Assembly: GCA_035709005.1 (NCBI GenBank)
Contig: DASTFB010000060.1
Span: forward strand, 1-32,707
Origin: Candidatus Methylomirabilota bacterium
GTDB taxonomy: Bacteria; Methylomirabilota; Methylomirabilia; Rokubacteriales; CSP1-6
DNA length: 32,707 bases
Direction of reading: 5' to 3'
The first letter of the stretch is position 1, and each line of letters opens with the position of its first letter. Below the pieces are notes generated by a model. That model saw nothing but the letters and a program-made list of their open reading frames with translations. It had not been told where the DNA came from and searched no databases. Both the position numbers and the translations under genes were made by a program. Shown piece after piece: positions 16,857 to 29,375 of the stretch.

Positions 16857-19800
16857 GTGGTGAGCGACGGCCCTCGCCTGGCCGATCGCCTGCGCGGCCC
16901 GCAGCATGTCCTCGACGCTGCGTATCGGCGGCTCGCCGGAGGCGGCCCCGGCGCGGATCGCGCGGCTGCCGAGTGGCTGCTCGACAACTACTACATCGTC
17001 CAGCGGGCCTTCCGGCTGGTGCGCGAGGAGTTCTCGCCCGCCTTCGAGCGCCGGCTGCCGCGCAGCGCGGCGGGTGAGCGGCCGGGACTCCCCGTGGCGT
17101 ATGCGCTGGCCCGGGAGATCGTGACGGCCAGCGCCCCCCACGTCGAGAGAGAGGGGATCGCGCGCCTGGTCGAGGAGTTCCAGACACTTCGCCCTCTCTC
17201 GATGGCCGAGGTCTGGGCGCTGCCCCTGCTTCTTCGCATCGTGGTGCTCGAGTCCCTGGCGGGCGCCGTCACCATCGCGCTCCCCCCGGAGGGACCCGCG
17301 GGGGACACCCCGACCGACCAGAGCGTCGGGGTCTGCATCCGGAGCCTGCGCACGCTCGAGACCACAGACTGGAAGGCGTTCTTCGAGGAGGTCAGCGCGA
17401 CCGAGCGGATCCTGCGCGAGGATCCGGCGGGCGTCTACGCCCGCATGGACTTCGACACGCGTGATCGCTACCGCAAGGTGGTCGAGGAGCTGGCCGCGCG
17501 CAGCGACTGGTCGGAGGAAGCCGTGGCCCGCGAGGCCGTGCGGCGGTCGCGCGAGGGCATGGGCGGTCGCCGCGGCCATGTCGGGTATCACCTCGTCGAC
17601 GAGGGCTTCGAGGCCCTCGGCCGGACGGTGGGCTATCGTCCCGGCCGAGGCACGCGGTGGCGGCGATTCCTCCTGCGTCATCCGGCCCCCTCGTACCTCG
17701 GGGCCATCGCCGTGGTCGCCTTGCTTCACGTGGCCGCGCTGGCCGTGGCGCTCCTCGCTGCGGGGACCGCGCCGGCCGTCGTCGTCGTGGGGCTGGCGCT
17801 GGCCCTCGTTCCGGCCGTGACCGTCGCGGTGAGCCTGGTGAACCGCCTGGTGATGCAGGTCATCCCCGTGCGCGTCCTCCCCAAGATGGACTTCCGCGAC
17901 GGTCTTGCTGTCGAATGCCGGACCATGATCGTCGAGCACGCCATCCTCTCGCCGGGGGACGACGTCTCGCCGCTCCTGTCGAGGCTCGAAATCCACTGGC
18001 TCGCCAGCGCCGACCCCAACCTCCATCTCGCGCTCCTGGTCTCGCTGGCCGACGCTCCCGAAGCGTCGATGCCAGGCGACGTCGACCTGGTGCGACGGGC
18101 CGAGGAGGGCGTGCGCGCGCTCAATGCGAGGTACGGGCACGACGGCATCGGTCCGTTTCACCTGCTGCATCGCCGGCGATTGTGGAACGCCCGCGAGGGC
18201 TGCTGGATGGCCTGGGAACGCAAGCGCGGCCAGGTCGCCGAGTTCAACCGCGTGCTCGCCGGCCATCAGGACACCAGCTTTGCCGGTCACGTCGGCGATC
18301 CCGACTTCCTTCCGACGACCCGGTTCGTGATCACCCTCGACGCCGACACCGAGCTTCCCCGCGGCGCAGCCCGCCGCCTCGTCGCCACCCTGGCGCATCC
18401 GCTCAACCGGGCCGAGCTCGAGGCCGGGACAGGTCGCGTGACGGCCGGCTACACGATCCTCCAGCCGCGCATGGACGTGACGCCTTTCGGCGCCGCCGCA
18501 TCCTCGTTCGCCCATCTGTTCGGGGGAGACCCCGGCCTCGACCTCTACGCCCGGGCGGTCTCGGACGTGTACCAGGATCTCTTCGGCGAGGGCATCTACG
18601 TCGGCAAGGGGATCTACGACCCGGTGGCGCTCGAGGCGAGCCTGCACGGGCGGGTGCCCGAGAACGCGGTGCTGAGCCACGACCTGTTCGAGGGGGTCCA
18701 CGGTCGGGCGGCGCTGGTGACGGACGTCGTCCTCTTCGAGACCTATCCGGCCGACTACCGCAGTTACTGGCGGCGTCTCCACCGCTGGGCCCGGGGAGAC
18801 TGGCAGCTTCTCCCCTGGCTCGGGCGCCGGGTGCCGCTCGCCGGCGGCGGGCGGGCGCCGAACGGGCTATCGCTCATCTCGCGCTGGAAGATCGTGGACA
18901 ACCTTCGAATCACCCTGCTTCCCCCGACGCTGCTCGGCTTTCTGCTTCTCGCCTGGGTCGCCTTCCCCGGCGCGCCCGCCGTGTGGACCGCGATCGCGGC
19001 CCTCGTGCTGGCTGCCCCCTTGCTCACCGAGGCGATGGGCGGACTGCTGTCGGCGAACCGGGTCGCGGCCCTGCCTCCGGCGGTCCGGGGGGTGACGCTT
19101 CGACTCCGACCCGCGTCGGCGCTCTGGATCATGCACGTGGCCCTCCTGCCCCATCGTGCCGTGGTTCTCACTGACGCGATCGTGCGCACACTCATCCGTC
19201 TGCGCCGGGGACGCCGACTCCTGGAGTGGACGTCAGCGGCCCGGGTGGCCCGCGCGCTGGTTGGCACCGAGGCCCGCCGACCGTTCTGGCGAGAGATGTT
19301 CGCGGCTCCGACGGTCTCGATCGGTACGCTGGCGCTGCTCGCCGTCGGTCGGCCGGACGCGCTCCCGGCCGCGCTTCCGCTCACGGCGCTCTGGTTCCTC
19401 GCCCCGGAGATCGCTGCCGCCGTCAGCCGGCCACGCCGCCAGCCCGCGCCGGCGTTGACGGACGCCGACGCCCGGCGCCTCCGTCTGCTCGCGCGCCGGA
19501 CCTGGCTCTTCTTCGACACGTTCGTGGGCCCGGACGACCAGTGGCTCCCGCCCGATCATTTCCAGGAGAAGCCACGGGGCGAGGTGGCACGGCGAACCTC
19601 CCCGACCAACATCGGCCTCCTGCAGCTGGCCACGCTGTCCGCCCACGATCTCGGCCATGCCGGCCTGCTGTCCGTCATCCTGCGCCTTCGGAACACGTTC
19701 GACACGCTCGGGCGAATGGAACGTCACCGCGGCCACTTCTACAACTGGTACGACACGCGCGATCTCGCGCCGCTGTCGCCCCGCTACGTCTCCACGGTGG

Positions 19801-22800
19801 ACAGCGGGAACCTCGCCGGGTGCCTGCTGATCGTGAAACAGGCGTGCCTCGAGCTCGTCCACGCGCCGGTCGTCGGGCCCGCCCGCTGGGAGGGGCTGCT
19901 CGACACGCTCGACGTCCTGCTCCAGGTGATCGAGCGCCGGGTCCCCTCGCCGGAGGCCGTGCGGTTCGTCCCGCTGCGCGCGTCCGTCACGAAGATGCGC
20001 GAGGAGACGGCGGCGCTGAGAGGACAGCGGCGCGCGTGGGGGCATGGCATTGCCCGGCTCCTTCAGCGCGGCGGCACCGAGCTCGACCAGGCCCTGCTCT
20101 CGGTGATCGCCGACGATGGCGCGGGTCTCGACCCGGACCTGCTCGCCGAGCTGCGCGTGTGGTCCGCCGAGGTGCCGCAGCATCTCGAGGCCATGTGGCG
20201 CGACATCCAGCTCTGCCTTCCGTGGGAGGCTCCGGAGGCGACGCCCCCGGTGGTCGTGGCCGAAGACCGTGGGGAGCTGGCGGAGGCGTGGGCCGCCTTC
20301 GAGCGATGCCTGCCCGCCGATCCCGCGCTGGGCGAGCTTCCCTCGGCCTGCGCGTGCGCGAGCGCCGGTCTATCGCGGCTCGAGAAGCAGCTCGACGTCT
20401 TGTCCGAGGACGTCGCCGGCCTGCCCGAGGCTCGCGCCTGGGCCCAGCGCCTCCAGGAGGCGATCGCGCGGGCAGGGGACACCGCGCGCAGCATCCTCGC
20501 CACCCTCGACGCGCTCGGCGAGCAGGCCGGGGCGCTCTTCGAGGCGATGGACTTCGCCTTCCTCTACGACGAGGGACGACGTCTCTTCTACATCGGCCAC
20601 GATGTCACCTCGGATCGCCGCGATGCGCACCATTACGACCTCCTCGCCTCCGAGGCGCGCCTGGCCAGCTTCGTCGCCATCGCGAAAGGGGACGTCCCGG
20701 AAGAGCACTGGCTCCAGCTCGGCCGCCCGCTCTCCCGCGTGGACGGCGCCACCACGCTCCTGTCCTGGAGCGGCACGATGTTCGAGTACCTGATGCCGAG
20801 GCTGCTCCTGCGGGAGTCGCCGGCCAGCCTGATGGGCCGGGCGTGCGCGGCCGCCGTCGAGGTCCAGATCGCGCATGCCGCCCGGCGTGGAGTTCCGTGG
20901 GGCATGTCGGAGTCGGGGTACTACCGCTTCGACGCGCAGCGCAATTACCAGTACCGGGCCTTCGGCGTCCCCGACCTCGGGTTCAAGCGTGGACTCGAGG
21001 ACGACGTGGTCGTCGCCCCCTATGCGTGCCTGCTCGCGCTGCCGTTCGCGCCGCCGGCGGTGATGGCCAATCTCGACCGTCTGGACGAGCTCGGACTCAT
21101 GGGGCGCTACGGCCTCTACGAGGCCGTGGACTTCACGGCATCACGTCTCGACGCCGGGACGACCCACGCGATCGTCCGCTCGTTCATGGCGCACCACCAG
21201 GGGATGATCCTGACCGCGATCGACAACCTGCTGGATGGCGAGACGATGGTGCGTCGCTTTCACGCCGACGCCATCGTCCGGACCGCGGAGCCGCTCCTGT
21301 TCGAGCGCCCGGCTGTCACGACGCCCGGGAAGCGGACGCGCCTCGTGCTCGCGCCCCCTCGCCCGGCGCCGGCCCCGCGGGCGCCCCTCGAGCCGTGGCC
21401 GGCGGGTCCCGACGCAGGCGTTCCGCAGGCCCACGTGCTATCGAACGGCCGCTACCGCGTCCTCGTCTCGAGTCACGGCGGCGGCAGCGACTGGGGCGCC
21501 GTGGCGCTCACGCGGTGGCGCGCCGACAGCACGCTCGACGGCCCCGGGTTCCGTCTGTACCTGCGCGACCTCGACCGCCGGTTCTCGTGGTCCCTGGCCC
21601 CGGGAGATGGCGAGATGGTGTTCCACGCCCACATGGTCGAGAGGCGCCAGCGCGTTCACGACGTCTCGCTCCGCGAGCAGGTCTGCGTCGCCTCGGGCGA
21701 CGACGTCGAGGTGCGGCTGGTGACGCTGGGGAACGAGGCGGCGGCACGGCGACGACTCGAGGTGACGAGCTACGCCGAGGTCGTCGTCGGCGACGCGGCC
21801 GAGGACGAGCGTCATCCGGCGTTCAGCAAGCTGTTCGTGGCGAGCGAGTACATCGAGGACCTGGATGCCCTCGCGTTCCACCGCCGACCGCGCTCCGGTC
21901 GGGGGCCCGACGCCTGGGTCGCGCACATGCTGGTGCTTCCGGCCGGCCGGGCGCGCCGGGCTGGCTACGAGAGCTCGCGCGAGCGCTTCGTGGGTCGTGG
22001 ACGGACGGTGCGGCGTCCGGGCGCGATCGACCGGGAGGGGCCCCGCGGCGCCGGAATGACGGGCGCGACACTCGATCCGGTCATGGCCCTGTCGGCGGAA
22101 GTCGAACTGCCGGCGCATCGCACCACGACGTTCGGGTACGTGGTCCTGGCCGCCCGCTCGCGCGACGACGTCCTGGCCCTGGCCAGCCGCTACCGCTCGC
22201 TTCCTGCCCTCGAGTGGAGCTTCGAGGCGGCGCGTCAGCGGAGCGAGGCCGAGGTGGCCGATCTGGCGCTCGCCCCTGGGGATCTCCGGGCGGCGGCGAG
22301 GCTGCTCTCCCTTCTCCTGTACCCCCACGGCGCCCTGCGAGCGCCCGCGGCGGTCCTCGGCGACAACCGCCTCGGGCAGCGCTCGCTGTGGAAACACGGG
22401 ATCTCCGGAGACCTGCCGATCTGGCTGGTCCGGGTCGGCGCGGCCGGGGACACGGCCATCCTGCCCTCGGTGTTGCGCGCCCACCGCCTCTGGCGTCAGC
22501 GCGGCGTCTCCATCGACCTGGTGATCCTCAACGAGCGGGCCGAGGGCTACGTGCCGGAGACCGACGATCACGTCGACCGGGCGATCGCCCAGGCCGCCGC
22601 CGACGCCTGGCGCGACCGGCCGGGCGGCGTGTTCCCGGTCCGGGCCGCTCGGCTCGAGGAGGCCGACCGCGTCCTGCTGCTGTCCGCCGCGCGCGTCGTG
22701 CTGGACGGAGCGGAGGGCAGCATCGGCCGGCAGCTCGCGCGTGCGGGGGGCGAGCCGGCGAGGCTCCCGGGGCTCGTGCCGAGCCTGACGCAGGTGCCGC

Positions 22801-25250
22801 TGCCCGAGAGCCTTCCGCGGCCCGACTCGTTGCTGTTCGACAACGGGCTCGGTGGGTTCACCGCCGGCGGCCGCGAGTACGTCATCCATCTCGAGCCGGG
22901 CGAGTCGACGCCGGCCCCATGGGTGAACGTGGTGGCCAACCGGCGCCTGGGCTTCGTCGTGACCGAGGCGGGCGGCGGCTACACGTGGGCGGAGAACGCC
23001 GGCGAGAACCGGCTGACGCCCTGGCGGAACGATCCGATCTCGGACGAGCCGGGCGAGGTGCTGTACCTGCGCGACGAGGAGACCGGCGCCGTGTGGACCC
23101 CGACGTCGCGGCCCGCCCCGGCCCACGGCGCCTATCAGATCCGCTACGGGGCGGGGTACGCCACCTTCCTCCACCGCAGCCACGGGCTCGAGCAATCCCT
23201 GCGCCTGTGGGTGCCGCCCGACGATCCGGTCAAGCTCGTCGAGCTCACGCTCACCAACCGGCTGGACCGCCCGCGCCGGGTCACGGTGACGTACTACGTC
23301 GAGTGGCTGCTCGGGGCCACGCGCGACCGATCGCAGGCGTTCGTGTTGCCGGAGTTCGATCCGGCCTCGGAGGCCCTGCTCGCGCGCAACCCGTGGAACG
23401 AGGACTTCGCCGGCCGCGTCGCGTTCGTCGCCGCGAGCAAGAGGCTCCACGGCCTGACGGCCGATCGCACGGAGTTTCTCGGCCGGCACGGCGACTACGC
23501 CGCGCCGGCGGCGCTGGGGCGTATCGGTCTGGCCAGCGCGGTCCGGGCCGGGCTCGACCCCTGCGCCGCGCTCCAGGTGCATCTCGACCTCGCCCCCGGG
23601 GCGACGGCGCACGTGCACTTCATGCTGGGCCAGGCGGCAAGGCGCGACGAGGCGCTGGGGCTCGTGACCAGGTACCGCGAACGCGCCGCGATCGGGGCCG
23701 CATGGTCCGATCTCCATCGGCACTGGGACGCGTTGCTCGGCGCGGTCACCGTGCGCACGCCGGATCCGGCGCTCGATGTGATGCTCAACCGCTGGCTGCT
23801 GTACCAGGTGCTGTCGAGCCGGCTGTGGGGTCGGACCGGCTACTATCAGTCGAGCGGCGCGTTCGGGTTCCGCGATCAGCTGCAGGACGTGGCCGCGCTG
23901 GTCCATTGCGCGCCCGGGATGTGGCGCGAGCATATTCTGGAATCGGCGCGGCACCAGTTCGAGACCGGGGACGTCCTCCACTGGTGGCACCCACCGGCGG
24001 GAGCCGGGGTGCGGACGCGGTGCTCGGACGACCTCCTGTGGTTACCCTTCATCACGGCCCACTACGTGGAGGCGACCGGCGACGAGACGATCCTGTCCGA
24101 GGAGGTGCCGTTCCTGGCGGGCGCGCCCCTGGAGCCGCGCGAGGTCGAGCGCTACGCGCGCTTCGAGCCCGGAGCGCGCCGCGCGACGCTCTACGCGCAC
24201 TGCCTGGCCGCGATCGAGCGCGGCCGCACGGCGGGCGCGCACGGACTGCCCCTGTTCGGGAGCGGCGACTGGAACGACGGGATGAACCGCGTGGGCATCG
24301 GCGGCCGCGGCGAGAGCGTGTGGCTCGGCTGGTTCCTCTACACGACGCTCGTCCGGTTCGCGGCGGTGAGCGAGCGCCGGGGCGACATGGACCGGGCGGC
24401 GACGCAGCGGCGTCAGGCGGAAGAGCTGCGCGGCGCCCTCGAGGCGGCCGCGTGGGACGGGGCCTGGTACCGGCGCGGATATTACGACGACGGCACGCCG
24501 CTGGGTTCGGCGGAGCGTGCCGAGTGCCGGATCGACGCGCTCGCCCAGGCCTGGGCGGTCCTGTCGTCGGCGGCGGACAGGCCACGGGCCGCCGCGGCGA
24601 TGGAGGCCGCAGCGCAGCACCTGGTGCGGGAGGAGGAGGGACTGATCGTGCTCCTCACGCCCCCCTTCGCCGGTCTCGACCAGGACCCAGGCTACATCCG
24701 CGGCTACCCTCCCGGGATCCGGGAAAACGGCGGCCAGTACACCCACGCGGCGATCTGGGCGCTCTGGGCCCTGACCGGGCTGGGCGAGATCGAGCGCGCG
24801 GTCGGCCTGTTCCAGCGGCTCCTGCCGATCCGCCACGCCCTCACCCGCGACGCCGTGGCCCGCTACCGGACCGAGCCGTACGTGCTGGCCGCCGACGTCT
24901 ACTCCGCGCCGCCATGGACCGGCCGGGGAGGCTGGACCTGGTACACGGGGGCCGCGGGCTGGGCCTACCGGCTGGGCCTCGAAGCGATCCTGGGCCTTCA
25001 CCCTTCGCGGGGGGGCTGGCGCCTGGACCCGCGCGTGCCGCCGAGCTGGCCGGGGTTCGAGATCGTCCTGCGCGACGGCGCGACGGTCGTGCACATCGAG
25101 GTGCAGAATCCACACGGCGTCACCCGTGGCGTCGCGCAGGCGTTCCTCGACGGCGAGCGCATCGACCCTGCGATCCTGCCGCGCCTGCAGGATGGGCGCA
25201 GGCACGAGCTCCGGGTGACGATGGGACGATCGGGAGAAGGCCGGGACTGA
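16857..25250 (+). CDS. ndvB: Cyclic beta-1,2-glucan synthase-like protein (NdvB/ChvB type)
   Basis: This 2797-residue enzyme of the inner membrane polymerises UDP-glucose and closes or trims the chain into cyclic beta-1,2-glucan for the periplasm. The order matches the family. An N-terminal helical part is followed by a membrane hairpin (about 280-330). A GT84 glycosyltransferase comes next, with LDADTELPRGAAR near 495, GEGIYVGKGIYDP, LSHDLFEG and RRLHRWARGDWQL. Further membrane helices lie at about 686-727, 757-783 and 820-857. A glycoamylase-like module has YYRFDAQRNYQYRAFG near 1356. Two GH94-type regions follow, the last with SGAFGFRDQLQDV near 2336 and GSGDWNDGMNRVG near 2468. The start is GTG 16857, with a second GTG next to it. 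The length is normal for NdvB. No export ATPase (ndvA) is present in the window. Several very long antisense frames across this gene are codon-bias artefacts. Confidence 0.93.
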   Translation: MVSDGPRLADRLRGPQHVLDAAYRRLAGGGPGADRAAAEWLLDNYYIVQRAFRLVREEFSPAFERRLPRSAAGERPGLPVAYALAREIVTASAPHVEREGIARLVEEFQTLRPLSMAEVWALPLLLRIVVLESLAGAVTIALPPEGPAGDTPTDQSVGVCIRSLRTLETTDWKAFFEEVSATERILREDPAGVYARMDFDTRDRYRKVVEELAARSDWSEEAVAREAVRRSREGMGGRRGHVGYHLVDEGFEALGRTVGYRPGRGTRWRRFLLRHPAPSYLGAIAVVALLHVAALAVALLAAGTAPAVVVVGLALALVPAVTVAVSLVNRLVMQVIPVRVLPKMDFRDGLAVECRTMIVEHAILSPGDDVSPLLSRLEIHWLASADPNLHLALLVSLADAPEASMPGDVDLVRRAEEGVRALNARYGHDGIGPFHLLHRRRLWNAREGCWMAWERKRGQVAEFNRVLAGHQDTSFAGHVGDPDFLPTTRFVITLDADTELPRGAARRLVATLAHPLNRAELEAGTGRVTAGYTILQPRMDVTPFGAAASSFAHLFGGDPGLDLYARAVSDVYQDLFGEGIYVGKGIYDPVALEASLHGRVPENAVLSHDLFEGVHGRAALVTDVVLFETYPADYRSYWRRLHRWARGDWQLLPWLGRRVPLAGGGRAPNGLSLISRWKIVDNLRITLLPPTLLGFLLLAWVAFPGAPAVWTAIAALVLAAPLLTEAMGGLLSANRVAALPPAVRGVTLRLRPASALWIMHVALLPHRAVVLTDAIVRTLIRLRRGRRLLEWTSAARVARALVGTEARRPFWREMFAAPTVSIGTLALLAVGRPDALPAALPLTALWFLAPEIAAAVSRPRRQPAPALTDADARRLRLLARRTWLFFDTFVGPDDQWLPPDHFQEKPRGEVARRTSPTNIGLLQLATLSAHDLGHAGLLSVILRLRNTFDTLGRMERHRGHFYNWYDTRDLAPLSPRYVSTVDSGNLAGCLLIVKQACLELVHAPVVGPARWEGLLDTLDVLLQVIERRVPSPEAVRFVPLRASVTKMREETAALRGQRRAWGHGIARLLQRGGTELDQALLSVIADDGAGLDPDLLAELRVWSAEVPQHLEAMWRDIQLCLPWEAPEATPPVVVAEDRGELAEAWAAFERCLPADPALGELPSACACASAGLSRLEKQLDVLSEDVAGLPEARAWAQRLQEAIARAGDTARSILATLDALGEQAGALFEAMDFAFLYDEGRRLFYIGHDVTSDRRDAHHYDLLASEARLASFVAIAKGDVPEEHWLQLGRPLSRVDGATTLLSWSGTMFEYLMPRLLLRESPASLMGRACAAAVEVQIAHAARRGVPWGMSESGYYRFDAQRNYQYRAFGVPDLGFKRGLEDDVVVAPYACLLALPFAPPAVMANLDRLDELGLMGRYGLYEAVDFTASRLDAGTTHAIVRSFMAHHQGMILTAIDNLLDGETMVRRFHADAIVRTAEPLLFERPAVTTPGKRTRLVLAPPRPAPAPRAPLEPWPAGPDAGVPQAHVLSNGRYRVLVSSHGGGSDWGAVALTRWRADSTLDGPGFRLYLRDLDRRFSWSLAPGDGEMVFHAHMVERRQRVHDVSLREQVCVASGDDVEVRLVTLGNEAAARRRLEVTSYAEVVVGDAAEDERHPAFSKLFVASEYIEDLDALAFHRRPRSGRGPDAWVAHMLVLPAGRARRAGYESSRERFVGRGRTVRRPGAIDREGPRGAGMTGATLDPVMALSAEVELPAHRTTTFGYVVLAARSRDDVLALASRYRSLPALEWSFEAARQRSEAEVADLALAPGDLRAAARLLSLLLYPHGALRAPAAVLGDNRLGQRSLWKHGISGDLPIWLVRVGAAGDTAILPSVLRAHRLWRQRGVSIDLVILNERAEGYVPETDDHVDRAIAQAAADAWRDRPGGVFPVRAARLEEADRVLLLSAARVVLDGAEGSIGRQLARAGGEPARLPGLVPSLTQVPLPESLPRPDSLLFDNGLGGFTAGGREYVIHLEPGESTPAPWVNVVANRRLGFVVTEAGGGYTWAENAGENRLTPWRNDPISDEPGEVLYLRDEETGAVWTPTSRPAPAHGAYQIRYGAGYATFLHRSHGLEQSLRLWVPPDDPVKLVELTLTNRLDRPRRVTVTYYVEWLLGATRDRSQAFVLPEFDPASEALLARNPWNEDFAGRVAFVAASKRLHGLTADRTEFLGRHGDYAAPAALGRIGLASAVRAGLDPCAALQVHLDLAPGATAHVHFMLGQAARRDEALGLVTRYRERAAIGAAWSDLHRHWDALLGAVTVRTPDPALDVMLNRWLLYQVLSSRLWGRTGYYQSSGAFGFRDQLQDVAALVHCAPGMWREHILESARHQFETGDVLHWWHPPAGAGVRTRCSDDLLWLPFITAHYVEATGDETILSEEVPFLAGAPLEPREVERYARFEPGARRATLYAHCLAAIERGRTAGAHGLPLFGSGDWNDGMNRVGIGGRGESVWLGWFLYTTLVRFAAVSERRGDMDRAATQRRQAEELRGALEAAAWDGAWYRRGYYDDGTPLGSAERAECRIDALAQAWAVLSSAADRPRAAAAMEAAAQHLVREEEGLIVLLTPPFAGLDQDPGYIRGYPPGIRENGGQYTHAAIWALWALTGLGEIERAVGLFQRLLPIRHALTRDAVARYRTEPYVLAADVYSAPPWTGRGGWTWYTGAAGWAYRLGLEAILGLHPSRGGWRLDPRVPPSWPGFEIVLRDGATVVHIEVQNPHGVTRGVAQAFLDGERIDPAILPRLQDGRRHELRVTMGRSGEGRD

Positions 25251-26055: not shown

Positions 26056-27369
26056 TTACCGGCTGCCGGATCGCGCCAACGAGGCGACCATGGCCACGAG
26101 CTCGTCCGGCTCCACCGGCTTTCGGGCATGCATCTGAAATCCGGCGGCCCGCAGGCGAGCGGAGTCCTCGGACGTGACGTAGCCAGTGAGCGCGATGGCT
26201 GGCAGGTAGCCGCCGTTCCCCTCCCGCGCTCGGACGTGGCGAATGAGCGTATAGCCGTCTTCGTCGGGCATCCCGATATCGCTGACCAGCACGTCCGGTC
26301 GGAAGTCATCCAACGCGCGCAGCGCTCCACGCACCGACCCGGAGGCCTCCACCTTGGCGCCGGCCATCTCGAGGATGAGGCGGAGGACGTCCCGCGCATC
26401 GGCATCGTCCTCGACGAGAAGGACCTTGATGTTGTCGAGCCGGGCCGGCGCGGCGGCGGGCGTGTCGGCGCCCCCAACCCGTTCGAGCTGGTCCAGTTCA
26501 CGAGGGGAAAGAACCGGAAGCCGAACCGTGAACGTGGCTCCCTCCCCCACGCCCGGGCTGTGGGCGTGAACGCTACCGCCGTGCCCTTCGACAAGCGCCT
26601 TGACGATGGCGAGCCCGAGACCGATCCCGCCCTGCCGTGTGCTCACCATCTTCGCCTGGCTGAACCGCTCGAAGAGATGCGGCAGGAACTCCGGGGCGAT
26701 GCCCTGACCGGTATCGGCGACCTGAATCTCCACCTGCGAACCGGCCGAGGTGAGCCGAACCTCGATGCGCCCACCCCGAGGCGTGAACTTCACGGCGTTC
26801 GAGAGAAGGTTCTCGACGACCTGCGTCAGACGGAGCGAGTCACCTGCGACCGGCTCGGGGACGGCGTGATCGATGAAGATCACGTTGATGGCCCTGGCGT
26901 CAGCCGCCAGGCGAAGCGCATCCAGTGCCTCTTGAACCACCGCGCTGAGGTCGACGGGCTGACGGTCGAGACGAATGCTGCCACCGATGATCCGGGACAC
27001 GTCGAGCAGGTCGTCGATGATTCGCGCCGCTGCCCTGGCGTTGCGTTCGATGACGTGGATCGCGTGCATCGCCTGGGCTGGGTCGAGCTGCCCGCGGTCG
27101 AGCAGATGCGCACAACCGAGGAGGGCGCTCAGCGGCGTCCGGAGCTCGTGGGAGACCATGGCGAGGAACTCGTCCTTCAACCGGTTCGCGGTCTCGGCGT
27201 CAGCCCGGGCGCGGTCCGCCGCATCCGCCAGGGTCTGATTCTGCATCGAGCTGACGACCAGCTGCTCGTTCGCGTCTCGAAGCTGGTCCAGCAACGACTG
27301 CTGATCAGGCTGCGTGGCGGGCGTTTCGCGCTTCGGATCGTCGCCCGGCCGTTCCGCGTGGGGAGTCAT
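26056..27369 (-). CDS. Hybrid histidine kinase/response regulator
   Basis: This soluble 437-residue signalling protein has no membrane segment. A short coiled coil (about 22-65) leads into the phosphoacceptor helix DEFLAMVSHELRTPLSALLG with His 74. The ATP-binding domain has the N box (QVVENLLSNAVKFT), VADTGQGIAPEFL and RQGGIGLGLAIVKALVEGHG. A receiver domain follows (KVLLVEDDADARDVLRLILE), with phosphoacceptor Asp 364 in DVLVSDIGMPDEDG and the conserved Lys in ARKPVEPDEL. There is no output domain. The start lies 15 bases after the KaiC stop, so it is the third gene of that operon. With no sensor of its own, it may take its input from the KaiC-like protein, as SasA does in cyanobacteria; that is inference. 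Confidence 0.9.
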   Translation of the reverse strand: MTPHAERPGDDPKRETPATQPDQQSLLDQLRDANEQLVVSSMQNQTLADAADRARADAETANRLKDEFLAMVSHELRTPLSALLGCAHLLDRGQLDPAQAMHAIHVIERNARAAARIIDDLLDVSRIIGGSIRLDRQPVDLSAVVQEALDALRLAADARAINVIFIDHAVPEPVAGDSLRLTQVVENLLSNAVKFTPRGGRIEVRLTSAGSQVEIQVADTGQGIAPEFLPHLFERFSQAKMVSTRQGGIGLGLAIVKALVEGHGGSVHAHSPGVGEGATFTVRLPVLSPRELDQLERVGGADTPAAAPARLDNIKVLLVEDDADARDVLRLILEMAGAKVEASGSVRGALRALDDFRPDVLVSDIGMPDEDGYTLIRHVRAREGNGGYLPAIALTGYVTSEDSARLRAAGFQMHARKPVEPDELVAMVASLARSGSR

Positions 27370-27384
27370 GCCACCCTTCTACGA

Positions 27385-28914
27385 TTACTGGCGGCGATCA
27401 CGTCGGGTCGGGCCTCGCGGGTGCGCCTCGGGGGAGCTCCAGGGATCGGCGGTCAGAAGCCCGTGATGGTACCCGCGGATCGGGTCACCGACGGTGATGC
27501 CCCTCGAGTTCACCTCGTAGAAACGCAGGTCCGCGCTGTGATCGCTGCCGCGGACCTTCACGACCGTCATCACCCGCTTCAGCGCCCCGTCCAGCTCCAC
27601 GTAGCGCTGCAGGATGAGCGCGTCCGTGAGGAACGCATTCTCGCGAGGACCGAGGCGGAGCTCGGTGTAGCCATCCTCGATCTCGATCGTCATCATCACC
27701 GTGACGCCGAGGCCGGTCAAGACGCCCACCAGGCGGTAGAGCGACTCCCGAAAATCTTCACGGAACCCGGGCGAGACGGCCGTCTCGAAGCCGGAGAGCG
27801 AGTCGATCGCGACGCGCTGGGCCTGGGTGCGTGCGATCGTCTCGCGCAGCTCGTACAGCGTCTCATCGACGGACAGGTCGAGCGGGCGAAGGTAGACCAT
27901 GGTGATCTGGCCGTCGTGGATCATCCGGCCGAGAGTATCGCCCAGCGCCGTGGTCCGCAGGTAGCCGGCGGGGTGCTTCTCGAAGACGGCGATCACGCCG
28001 CGCTCCCCGCGCCTCACCCCCTCGACGACGAACTGACCGGCCAGCACGGTCTTGCCCGAACCGGAGGGGCCGGCGACCATCGCCGAATAGCCCCGGGGGA
28101 CGCCGCCGCCCAGCATCTCGTCGAGGCCGCGGACGCCCGTCGAGAGGCGCCCCTGGACAGGCGCGACGGCCTGTGACGCATCCGCCTGAGCCGGATCCGC
28201 CTCCGGCTTGGGAAGCCGGGGGAACACCTTGAGGCCATCCGGCGTGATCCGAAACGTGTGGAGACCAGGCAGGTCACCCTGCCCGCGCAACTTGACGACT
28301 CTGATCTTCCGCACGACGGAGTTCCGCTCGATCGTCTGCTTCAGGACGATGAGGCTGTCGGCCACGGTGAAGACCGGATGGTCACCCTCCGCGTCAGGAA
28401 ACTCGCCGACGAGGAAGGTCGTCGCCTCCCAGGTGGTGAGGTGAAGCGCCAGCCTCTGGACGAAGTCCTGCACGTCCAGCGCGCTCAGCTCGGCTTCATT
28501 CCCCACCCGCAGCACCGAGCGAAAGGAGTCCACGATGACGAAGCCGGGGGTCACGGCTTCGACCTGACGCACGATGCTGTCGAGGACTGCCGGGAGGCCC
28601 CGTGGTACCTCCCCGCTCAGCGAGCTGAAGCGGATCATGCCGTTCACCTTCGCCGGATCGAAGAAGCTGTACTGCTGCTGGTACCGGAGCATCTTGAGGG
28701 GCGGCTCGCCGACGATCGTGAAGTAGAGGCCCGGGCGATCGCCCGTCGCGTTGGCAAACATGATCTGGTGGGCCAGGGTCGTCTTGCCGCACCCGGGGCC
28801 GCCGACGATGAGGTTGAAGGACAGCTCCGGGAGGCCTCCCCCCAGCACGTCGTCCAGCCCCGGAACCCCGGTTGCGAGTCGCCGGATCGAGACTGCTTCG
28901 CGGCCATCTGTCAT
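27385..28914 (-). CDS. KaiC-like double RecA-fold ATPase
   Basis: This 509-residue protein has two KaiC domains. The first Walker A is GGPGCGKTT (K44), the second GPSGSGKT (K288). Each domain begins with STG/ATGVxGLDxxLGGG. The tandem catalytic glutamates of cyanobacterial KaiC are reduced to one in each domain: GE in the first (IVGEPPLK) and EK in the second (VFEKHPAG). In the second domain the residues aligning with phosphorylation sites S431 and T432 are A427 and F428 (ENAFLTDALILQRY), so the classic phosphorylation rhythm should not occur. The ATG overlaps the stop of the upstream gene (ATGA, 28911-28914), and a kinase gene follows. It probably is an ATP-driven signalling switch rather than a clock. 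No KaiA or KaiB is in the window. Confidence 0.92.
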   Translation of the reverse strand: MTDGREAVSIRRLATGVPGLDDVLGGGLPELSFNLIVGGPGCGKTTLAHQIMFANATGDRPGLYFTIVGEPPLKMLRYQQQYSFFDPAKVNGMIRFSSLSGEVPRGLPAVLDSIVRQVEAVTPGFVIVDSFRSVLRVGNEAELSALDVQDFVQRLALHLTTWEATTFLVGEFPDAEGDHPVFTVADSLIVLKQTIERNSVVRKIRVVKLRGQGDLPGLHTFRITPDGLKVFPRLPKPEADPAQADASQAVAPVQGRLSTGVRGLDEMLGGGVPRGYSAMVAGPSGSGKTVLAGQFVVEGVRRGERGVIAVFEKHPAGYLRTTALGDTLGRMIHDGQITMVYLRPLDLSVDETLYELRETIARTQAQRVAIDSLSGFETAVSPGFREDFRESLYRLVGVLTGLGVTVMMTIEIEDGYTELRLGPRENAFLTDALILQRYVELDGALKRVMTVVKVRGSDHSADLRFYEVNSRGITVGDPIRGYHHGLLTADPWSSPEAHPRGPTRRDRRQ

Positions 28915-29375
28915 TCCTCAGTCTCCTGGCGGTGGGTTCGGGGTAGGAGAGTGTCGGGCCAGCTCTGCTGGAGCAGGCTCCACGTGAGCCTGGCGCCGAT
29001 GACGTTCGCCAGCAAGCCCAGGAAGGTGGCGAAGAGTGTCACCGAGATCTCCCGGATCACGTCGGGCTCGTGCTCCTGCAGAGCGGCGCGAAGCGGCTCG
29101 GCCAGGCTGTCGCAGCGCTCACCGAGGACGATCCGCTCGTCGAGAAAGGCGAACTCCGATTTTCCGAGTTTCACCGCCCGGAGAAGGATCGCCTGGACGC
29201 CGGCGAGACCGATGACGTCGGCGAGCCGCTGACACAGCGAGTCCAGGAGGCGCCCCGCCGCCGCCGCCAGAGTCTCGGGGGTCGCCGGCGCTCCGCTCGT
29301 TTCGAGGGCGAGCAACTGCGTCACGGCGCGACGCAGGCGCGGAGTCGCGTACCGCGTGTCCGAGGCTTTTCCCAC
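28911..29375 (-). CDS. Hypothetical protein, first gene of the KaiC operon
   Basis: The product has 154 residues from GTG 29375, which has GGAGG six bases before it; an in-frame ATG at 29435 lacks a ribosome site. The protein is not recognised. It looks fully helical: an Arg-rich N-terminus (TPRLRRAVTQLLALE), a central part with LCQRLADVIGLAGVQAILLR, and a hydrophobic helix VTLFATFLGLLANVIGARLT near the end. It is not KaiB, which is a thioredoxin-like protein of about 100 residues. Its stop overlaps the kaiC start by four bases, a strong sign that the two proteins work together, perhaps as input or assembly partner of the ATPase. Codon use matches its neighbours. Confidence 0.75.
   Translation of the reverse strand: MGKASDTRYATPRLRRAVTQLLALETSGAPATPETLAAAAGRLLDSLCQRLADVIGLAGVQAILLRAVKLGKSEFAFLDERIVLGERCDSLAEPLRAALQEHEPDVIREISVTLFATFLGLLANVIGARLTWSLLQQSWPDTLLPRTHRQETEE

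Follow-up and report, generated by a model that had tools for sequence, protein, structure and literature searches.

In the 32,707-nucleotide stretch of DNA analysed here (the window), a small protein, X, is encoded directly ahead of a two-domain KaiC-family ATPase and a hybrid histidine kinase (HK), and we lean towards a reading in which an ATP-driven signalling switch of the cytoplasm would have X and KaiC as its fixed core and the third gene, here the hybrid HK, as a replaceable output. The layout is operon-like, the linkage of X to KaiC is near-obligate, the two proteins are co-inherited, phosphosites have been lost and outputs are exchanged; X is also found adjoining or fused to outputs in the absence of KaiC.

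Organization of the X-kaiC-HK locus

The three minus-strand genes are tightly packed in the order X, kaiC, HK, and their features have the following exact coordinates:

28911..29375, minus strand: gene X, 154 aa, GTG start, all-helical product; dedicated neighbour of X-type KaiC
28911..28914, minus strand: overlap of X stop and kaiC start, ATGA, 4 bp
27385..28914, minus strand: kaiC, two-domain KaiC-family ATPase, 509 aa
28780..28803, minus strand: CI Walker A, GGPGCGKT, residues 38-45
28702..28710, minus strand: CI catalytic-glutamate region, GEP replacing EE, residues 69-71
28048..28071, minus strand: CII Walker A, GPSGSGKT, residues 282-289
27976..27981, minus strand: CII catalytic-glutamate pair, changed to Glu312-Lys313
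27631..27636, minus strand: Ala427-Phe428, at the positions of cyanobacterial KaiC Ser431-Thr432
26056..27369, minus strand: hybrid histidine kinase, 437 aa, starting 15 nt past kaiC
27148..27150, minus strand: HK phospho-acceptor His74 in SHELRTP
26086..26424, minus strand: HK C-terminal REC, residues 316-428

A purine-rich GGTGGAGG lies shortly 5' of the GTG start of X. The -4 overlap between X and kaiC recurs in many relatives, and translational coupling of the two genes via the ATGA is likely. The initial annotation had described a 154-residue helical protein overlapping kaiC by four bases and a sensorless hybrid kinase following it, and both descriptions hold: the AlphaFold model of X is helical, and the kinase, beyond its 15-nt gap, comprises an N-terminal predicted helical stretch followed by HisKA, HATPase_c and REC, with significant Pfam matches to HisKA, HATPase_c and Response_reg and none to PAS, GAF or another recognisable sensor domain. 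Elsewhere in the window (16857-25250, plus strand), a 2797-aa open frame convergent to the operon resembles, by eye, a cyclic beta-glucan synthase (NdvB-like).

X is a conserved family linked to kaiC

That X is a chance or mis-called gene was rejected, as a family HMM from which the window protein was left out still detects it (E 8e-31). When the window KaiC protein was searched against one genome per species (84,980 species), 36 kaiC loci were recovered, spanning nine named phyla besides the window's own (Armatimonadota, Myxococcota, Gemmatimonadota, Pseudomonadota, Planctomycetota, Bdellovibrionota, Acidobacteriota, Chloroflexota and Verrucomicrobiota), and an X homologue lies immediately 5' of kaiC in all 36. 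Thirty-four of these were identified with the HMM and two (L008 and L012) by reading the frames. The latter two were considered as cases of lost linkage and rejected, X being present in frame 5' of kaiC; the ORF caller missed them because the conserved part is not preceded by ATG, GTG or TTG. In both, X is open and conserved, with either another start codon or an assembly error.

Conversely, an X profile, used without reference to KaiC, was run in about 1,700 additional genome searches covering several groups. Pooling all searches and excluding the window's own gene gives 77 distinct X genes, of which 71 have an X-type kaiC directly 3'; the X-anchored searches contributed 32 of the 71 pairs. 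The co-occurrence with this type of KaiC that had been proposed as a check on the initial annotation is therefore seen from both directions. The six exceptions consist of two contig ends (L067, L105), the first copy of a tandem pair (L015), a kaiC whose frame is broken (L091) and two genuine cases of KaiC-free X: in L083, X (E 5e-12, HMM without L083) is followed by a PAS histidine kinase with no kaiC, and in L092 it forms the N-terminal part of a GGDEF protein (E 1.5e-10, HMM without L092). Three further matches (L003, L084 and L098) were set aside as chance or too weak.

X is rare: it occurs in at least 1 of 95 genomes (one clear case) in the window's own phylum, in at least 18 of 198 genomes, a few of them weak, in the sampled gemmatimonad class and in at least 3 of 189 sampled genomes of the myxobacterial phylum, all three being lower bounds from searches that score a limited number of candidates in each genome. 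Named sequenced isolates carrying the operon include Caballeronia sp. SBC2, Paracoccus liaowanqingii and Noviherbaspirillum humi; on the plasmids of the first two, X is annotated only as a hypothetical protein.

Several loci depart from the usual arrangement. L015 (4930-6040) carries a tandem X pair 5' of kaiC, the first copy having a longer C-terminal extension. In L111 and L108 (G1719:C1, 2955233-2958103), X seems split into two pieces about 2.5 kb apart, followed by an intact-looking kaiC, which appears to resemble the outcome of an insertion. L002 (G055:C166, 2-331, minus strand), from a genome of the window's family, joins about 40 N-terminal X residues in frame to a REC with close similarity to the one in the window kinase, which would fit a deletion of the intervening part of the same operon; it lies at a contig end and is possibly a misassembly.

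Sequence and structure of X

X has no significant Pfam match (best E 0.018, below the cut-off), and a known family was rejected, since neither the whole family, searched against Pfam, PHROGs and PDB sequences, nor the window protein, searched against NCBIfam and PADLOC, produced more than weak, scattered matches. AlphaFold models of the window protein and of a distant relative within the family (26% identity) are confident (pLDDT 86.7 and 86.1, pTM 0.81 and 0.82, respectively) and almost wholly helical. Helices with the motifs GxxGFxxLLxRAL and TFIGxxLTLRL are conserved in the family. A known fold was likewise rejected, because neither of these separately modelled members has a meaningful Foldseek match in the PDB (best E 1.8 and 2.4), nor the second among viral models (best E 0.9). 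The models thus point to a protein with no solved relative among the PDB and viral models compared, rather than to a proven new fold. The earlier proposal that the first protein is a candidate new component is in keeping with these results, X falling in no Pfam or NCBIfam family while being a near-obligate neighbour of kaiC. No likeness to KaiA or KaiB was found in Pfam, in PDB sequences or in Foldseek PDB matches with E below 1. PADLOC gave no anti-phage defence assignment for X and only weak, generic ATPase or REC matches for KaiC and the HK.

X could instead be a ligand-sensing input domain: a small molecule bound to X would determine the state of KaiC and, through KaiC, that of the kinase. 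The X-GGDEF fusion and the X-HK pair do have the input-to-output order typical of sensor domains, and the window kinase lacks a recognisable sensor domain. However, the invariant residues of X are glycines, a leucine and an arginine, and no conserved His, Cys or acidic cluster hinting at a cofactor or metal was found in the family, and we regard this explanation as quite improbable.

ATPase motifs and phosphosites of the X-type KaiC

The window KaiC belongs to the KaiC superfamily, with two stretches matching the KaiC domain (PF06745, E 3e-65) and a Walker A motif in each; both motifs are intact, and are invariant or nearly so across 34 relatives. It scores only 136.5 bits against the cyanobacterial circadian KaiC equivalog TIGR02655, for which the cut-off is 546. 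Where circadian KaiC has Ser431/Thr432 and tandem glutamates in both CI and CII, the window protein reads A-F, GE and EK, in agreement with the single catalytic glutamate per domain noted initially. In an alignment to the canonical ST-type KaiC L144, the window's ENAFLTD stands opposite HISTITD, so that Ser431 corresponds to Ala and Thr432 to Phe, the Ala-Phe pair already reported for the second domain. Displacement of the phosphosites, which alignment was to decide, was rejected, A-F-L-T-D aligning with S-T-I-T-D of clock KaiC; by this alignment, the sites are lost.

The losses are unevenly distributed among the 63 X-type KaiCs. In a midpoint-rooted, maximum-likelihood tree of these proteins, the window KaiC falls within a 17-member clade (support 100/99) that includes members from the Myxococcota. 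The Thr432 equivalent is Phe family-wide (61 of 63), and CI reads Gly-Glu for Glu-Glu in 63 of 63, the placement of the gap being ambiguous but leaving at most one Glu. The losses of the serine and of the second CII glutamate, on the other hand, are concentrated in the window clade: the glutamate is replaced (by K, Q, R or H) in 17 of 17 members and the serine in 14 (13 Ala, 1 Cys), whereas the remaining 46 proteins keep the serine in every case and EE in 44. The claim that the classic phosphosites and one catalytic glutamate are gone thus stands for the window but not family-wide, where Ser and the second CII Glu are mostly kept. As three clade members (L006, L007 and L034) lack the glutamate and still have the serine, glutamate loss may have preceded serine loss. 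Losing the tandem CI glutamate and the second CII glutamate could leave a weak or dead ATPase.

These substitutions bear on whether the set might be a KaiC-based timer, either clock or hourglass, with X replacing KaiA and KaiB. An hourglass comprising KaiC and an HK, free of KaiA and KaiB, has been proposed for Ramlibacter in the text of the 2011 report (PMC3164672), and the Walker A motifs are intact here; but the tandem CI glutamate is gone across the family, the window clade has lost the second CII glutamate (17/17) and usually the serine (14/17), and there is no sign of daily timing, making a timer highly improbable. The anatomy of the locus fits the initial view that the set would be no clock but a self-contained signalling module driven by ATP.

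KaiB and other KaiC lineages

The initial annotation had noted no KaiB beside the operon, and KaiB (PF07689), a component of the KaiABC clock, is in fact absent from the whole window assembly (G000, 95% complete), with S. elongatus positive as control. Seven of 17 genomes with X-kaiC do contain KaiB, and in all seven it is near another KaiC, on a contig other than that of X-kaiC. The window genome itself encodes a second two-domain KaiC (L142, G000:C55:85000-90500; 520-aa frame) followed by a histidine kinase, with VSSLVD as its phosphosite region. X was found neither near L142 nor near three further KaiC loci from X-kaiC genomes. With KaiB beside non-X KaiCs, and X absent there, X and KaiB mark separate KaiC lineages.

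At one locus from another genome of the window's family, L041 (G033:C123, 2-3297), the genes run in the order hybrid kinase, X-like gene, kaiC; this KaiC is of another kind, its phosphosites reading Ser-Ser and its CII pair EE. Its X-like protein is 122 aa long and very divergent (E 5e-5), and the X family may on this basis extend to further KaiC lineages.

Co-inheritance of X and KaiC

Pairwise protein distances within the X and KaiC families are correlated (r 0.75, 63 pairs, reached in 0 of 2000 permutations), which supports common inheritance rather than proving contact, since the permutation ignores shared species history. The maximum-likelihood trees of the two proteins have their main groups in common although phyla are intermixed, as is expected if X-kaiC travels as a unit. 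L059 is the one mismatch, pointing to occasional recombination or to mixing within a metagenome bin. L059 and L051 are two X-kaiC operons of a single assembly (G201), in which the X proteins are close and the KaiCs are of different lineages.

Outputs and a model for signalling

The gene 3' of X-type kaiC varies considerably. It encodes a hybrid HK, a PAS- or GAF-HK, a HisKA_2 kinase in L018, a PAS-GAF-SpoIIE phosphatase in L004, an HWE kinase with a single REC in L097 (Paracoccus liaowanqingii plasmid) and a GGDEF-HK protein, annotated as a diguanylate cyclase, in L095 (Caballeronia sp. SBC2 plasmid), while some loci (e.g. L009 and L038) have no recognised output gene beside kaiC. It is because the gene after kaiC changes that X-KaiC is taken as the fixed core, and the occurrence of X ahead of a PAS-HK or fused to GGDEF without KaiC indicates that it acts like an input or relay domain for signalling outputs.

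Alternatively, X might act on KaiC alone, as a KaiA-like or KaiB-like regulator of the ATPase cycle, with the N-terminus of the kinase reading KaiC directly. Two observations would suit such an arrangement: KaiC accompanies X almost everywhere whereas the outputs differ in type, and the kinases at X-kaiC loci carry their own N-terminal coiled-coil-like or PAS segments. We nevertheless think it unlikely, given that X occurs without an adjacent KaiC in L083 and L092, which points to contact with outputs, and resembles neither KaiA nor KaiB in sequence or Foldseek searches.

For the preferred fixed core of X and KaiC, we infer binding, activity and the direction of information flow. With both Walker A motifs intact, KaiC would assemble into a ring binding and hydrolysing ATP, and in the window clade the signal would be carried by the nucleotide state or conformation of KaiC and not by Ser/Thr autophosphorylation, the former being more likely given the loss of the usual phospho-acceptors and of part of the catalytic pair. 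X would bind KaiC and relay or gate its state to the kinase through the helical N-terminal stretch of that protein, and the kinase would autophosphorylate His74 and pass the phosphate to its own REC and then to partners encoded elsewhere. The job of X, reading or regulating the KaiC ring, would thereby be akin to that of cyanobacterial KaiB or the KaiB-like domain of SasA, performed by an unrelated fold.

Relation to known KaiC systems

In the cyanobacterial KaiABC-SasA clock, the state of a two-domain KaiC is passed to a histidine kinase, and KaiC-reading kinases of the SasA type have an N-terminal KaiB-like (thioredoxin-fold) domain. The present locus shares the two-domain KaiC and the histidine kinase; in contrast, the window genome lacks KaiB, its KaiC lacks Ser431/Thr432 and the tandem glutamates, its kinase has no KaiB-like domain (HisKA, HATPase_c and REC alone being significant in Pfam) and X is helical with no Kai match.

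Also comparable are the KaiC-histidine kinase operons without KaiB described in 2011 from Ramlibacter and others, and the third ('black') kaiC-context group (PMC3164672); the window carries a KaiC-kinase operon of this 2011 type, with the kinase gene directly after kaiC and kaiB absent. In the portions consulted, that report lists KaiC homologues whose phosphosites are poorly conserved (SF and AF among them) near HK, REC or GGDEF genes, the same combination as seen here, shows co-transcription of a kaiC-HK pair of the second group and describes the conserved HK N-terminus as similar to KaiB/SasA; those portions describe no conserved small protein 5' of kaiC, whereas here X is constant and the output varies.

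Site loss is also shared with about fifty myxobacterial KaiCs reported in 2024 to lack both phosphosites (PMC11832031), and the window's KaiC clade has members in the Myxococcota. The mode of action of such KaiCs is posed by those authors as an explicit question, and the sections of their article consulted describe no small partner, unlike X-kaiC. Most of these proteins probably belong to types other than X-type, because X was found in just 3 (a lower bound) of the 189 genomes sampled from that phylum. KaiC-like ATPases that occur together with two-component and other signalling domains were recognised as signalling hubs in archaea (Makarova 2017, cited in PMC5847659); these resemble the present set in that combination but are archaeal and often fusions, with no X-like partner mentioned in the part of PMC5847659 consulted.

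Open-access literature on KaiC together with Methylomirabilota, SpoIIE or absent phosphosites contained nothing on X, and the X partner, its distribution, its KaiC-free attachment to outputs and the clade-wide pattern of loss were not found in open-access main text. The near-obligate X family thus appears new, while KaiC-kinase operons with poor phosphosites have been known since 2011.

It is a broader proposition, held with about equal belief and doubt, that X founds a new helical domain family, a dedicated reader or regulator of a distinct and widespread bacterial KaiC lineage. KaiC would then be a general-purpose engine signalling through its ATP state, to which different outputs (kinase, phosphatase or cyclase) can be attached, and phosphorylation of KaiC would have been dropped altogether in one clade. 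The natural series of sites (SF with EE, SF with EK/ER, AF with EK/EQ) offers a test set for KaiC-ring signalling without the phospho-cycle, and, as KaiC homologues devoid of phosphosites are common outside cyanobacteria, the dedicated, co-inherited X provides a concrete handle on their mode of action.
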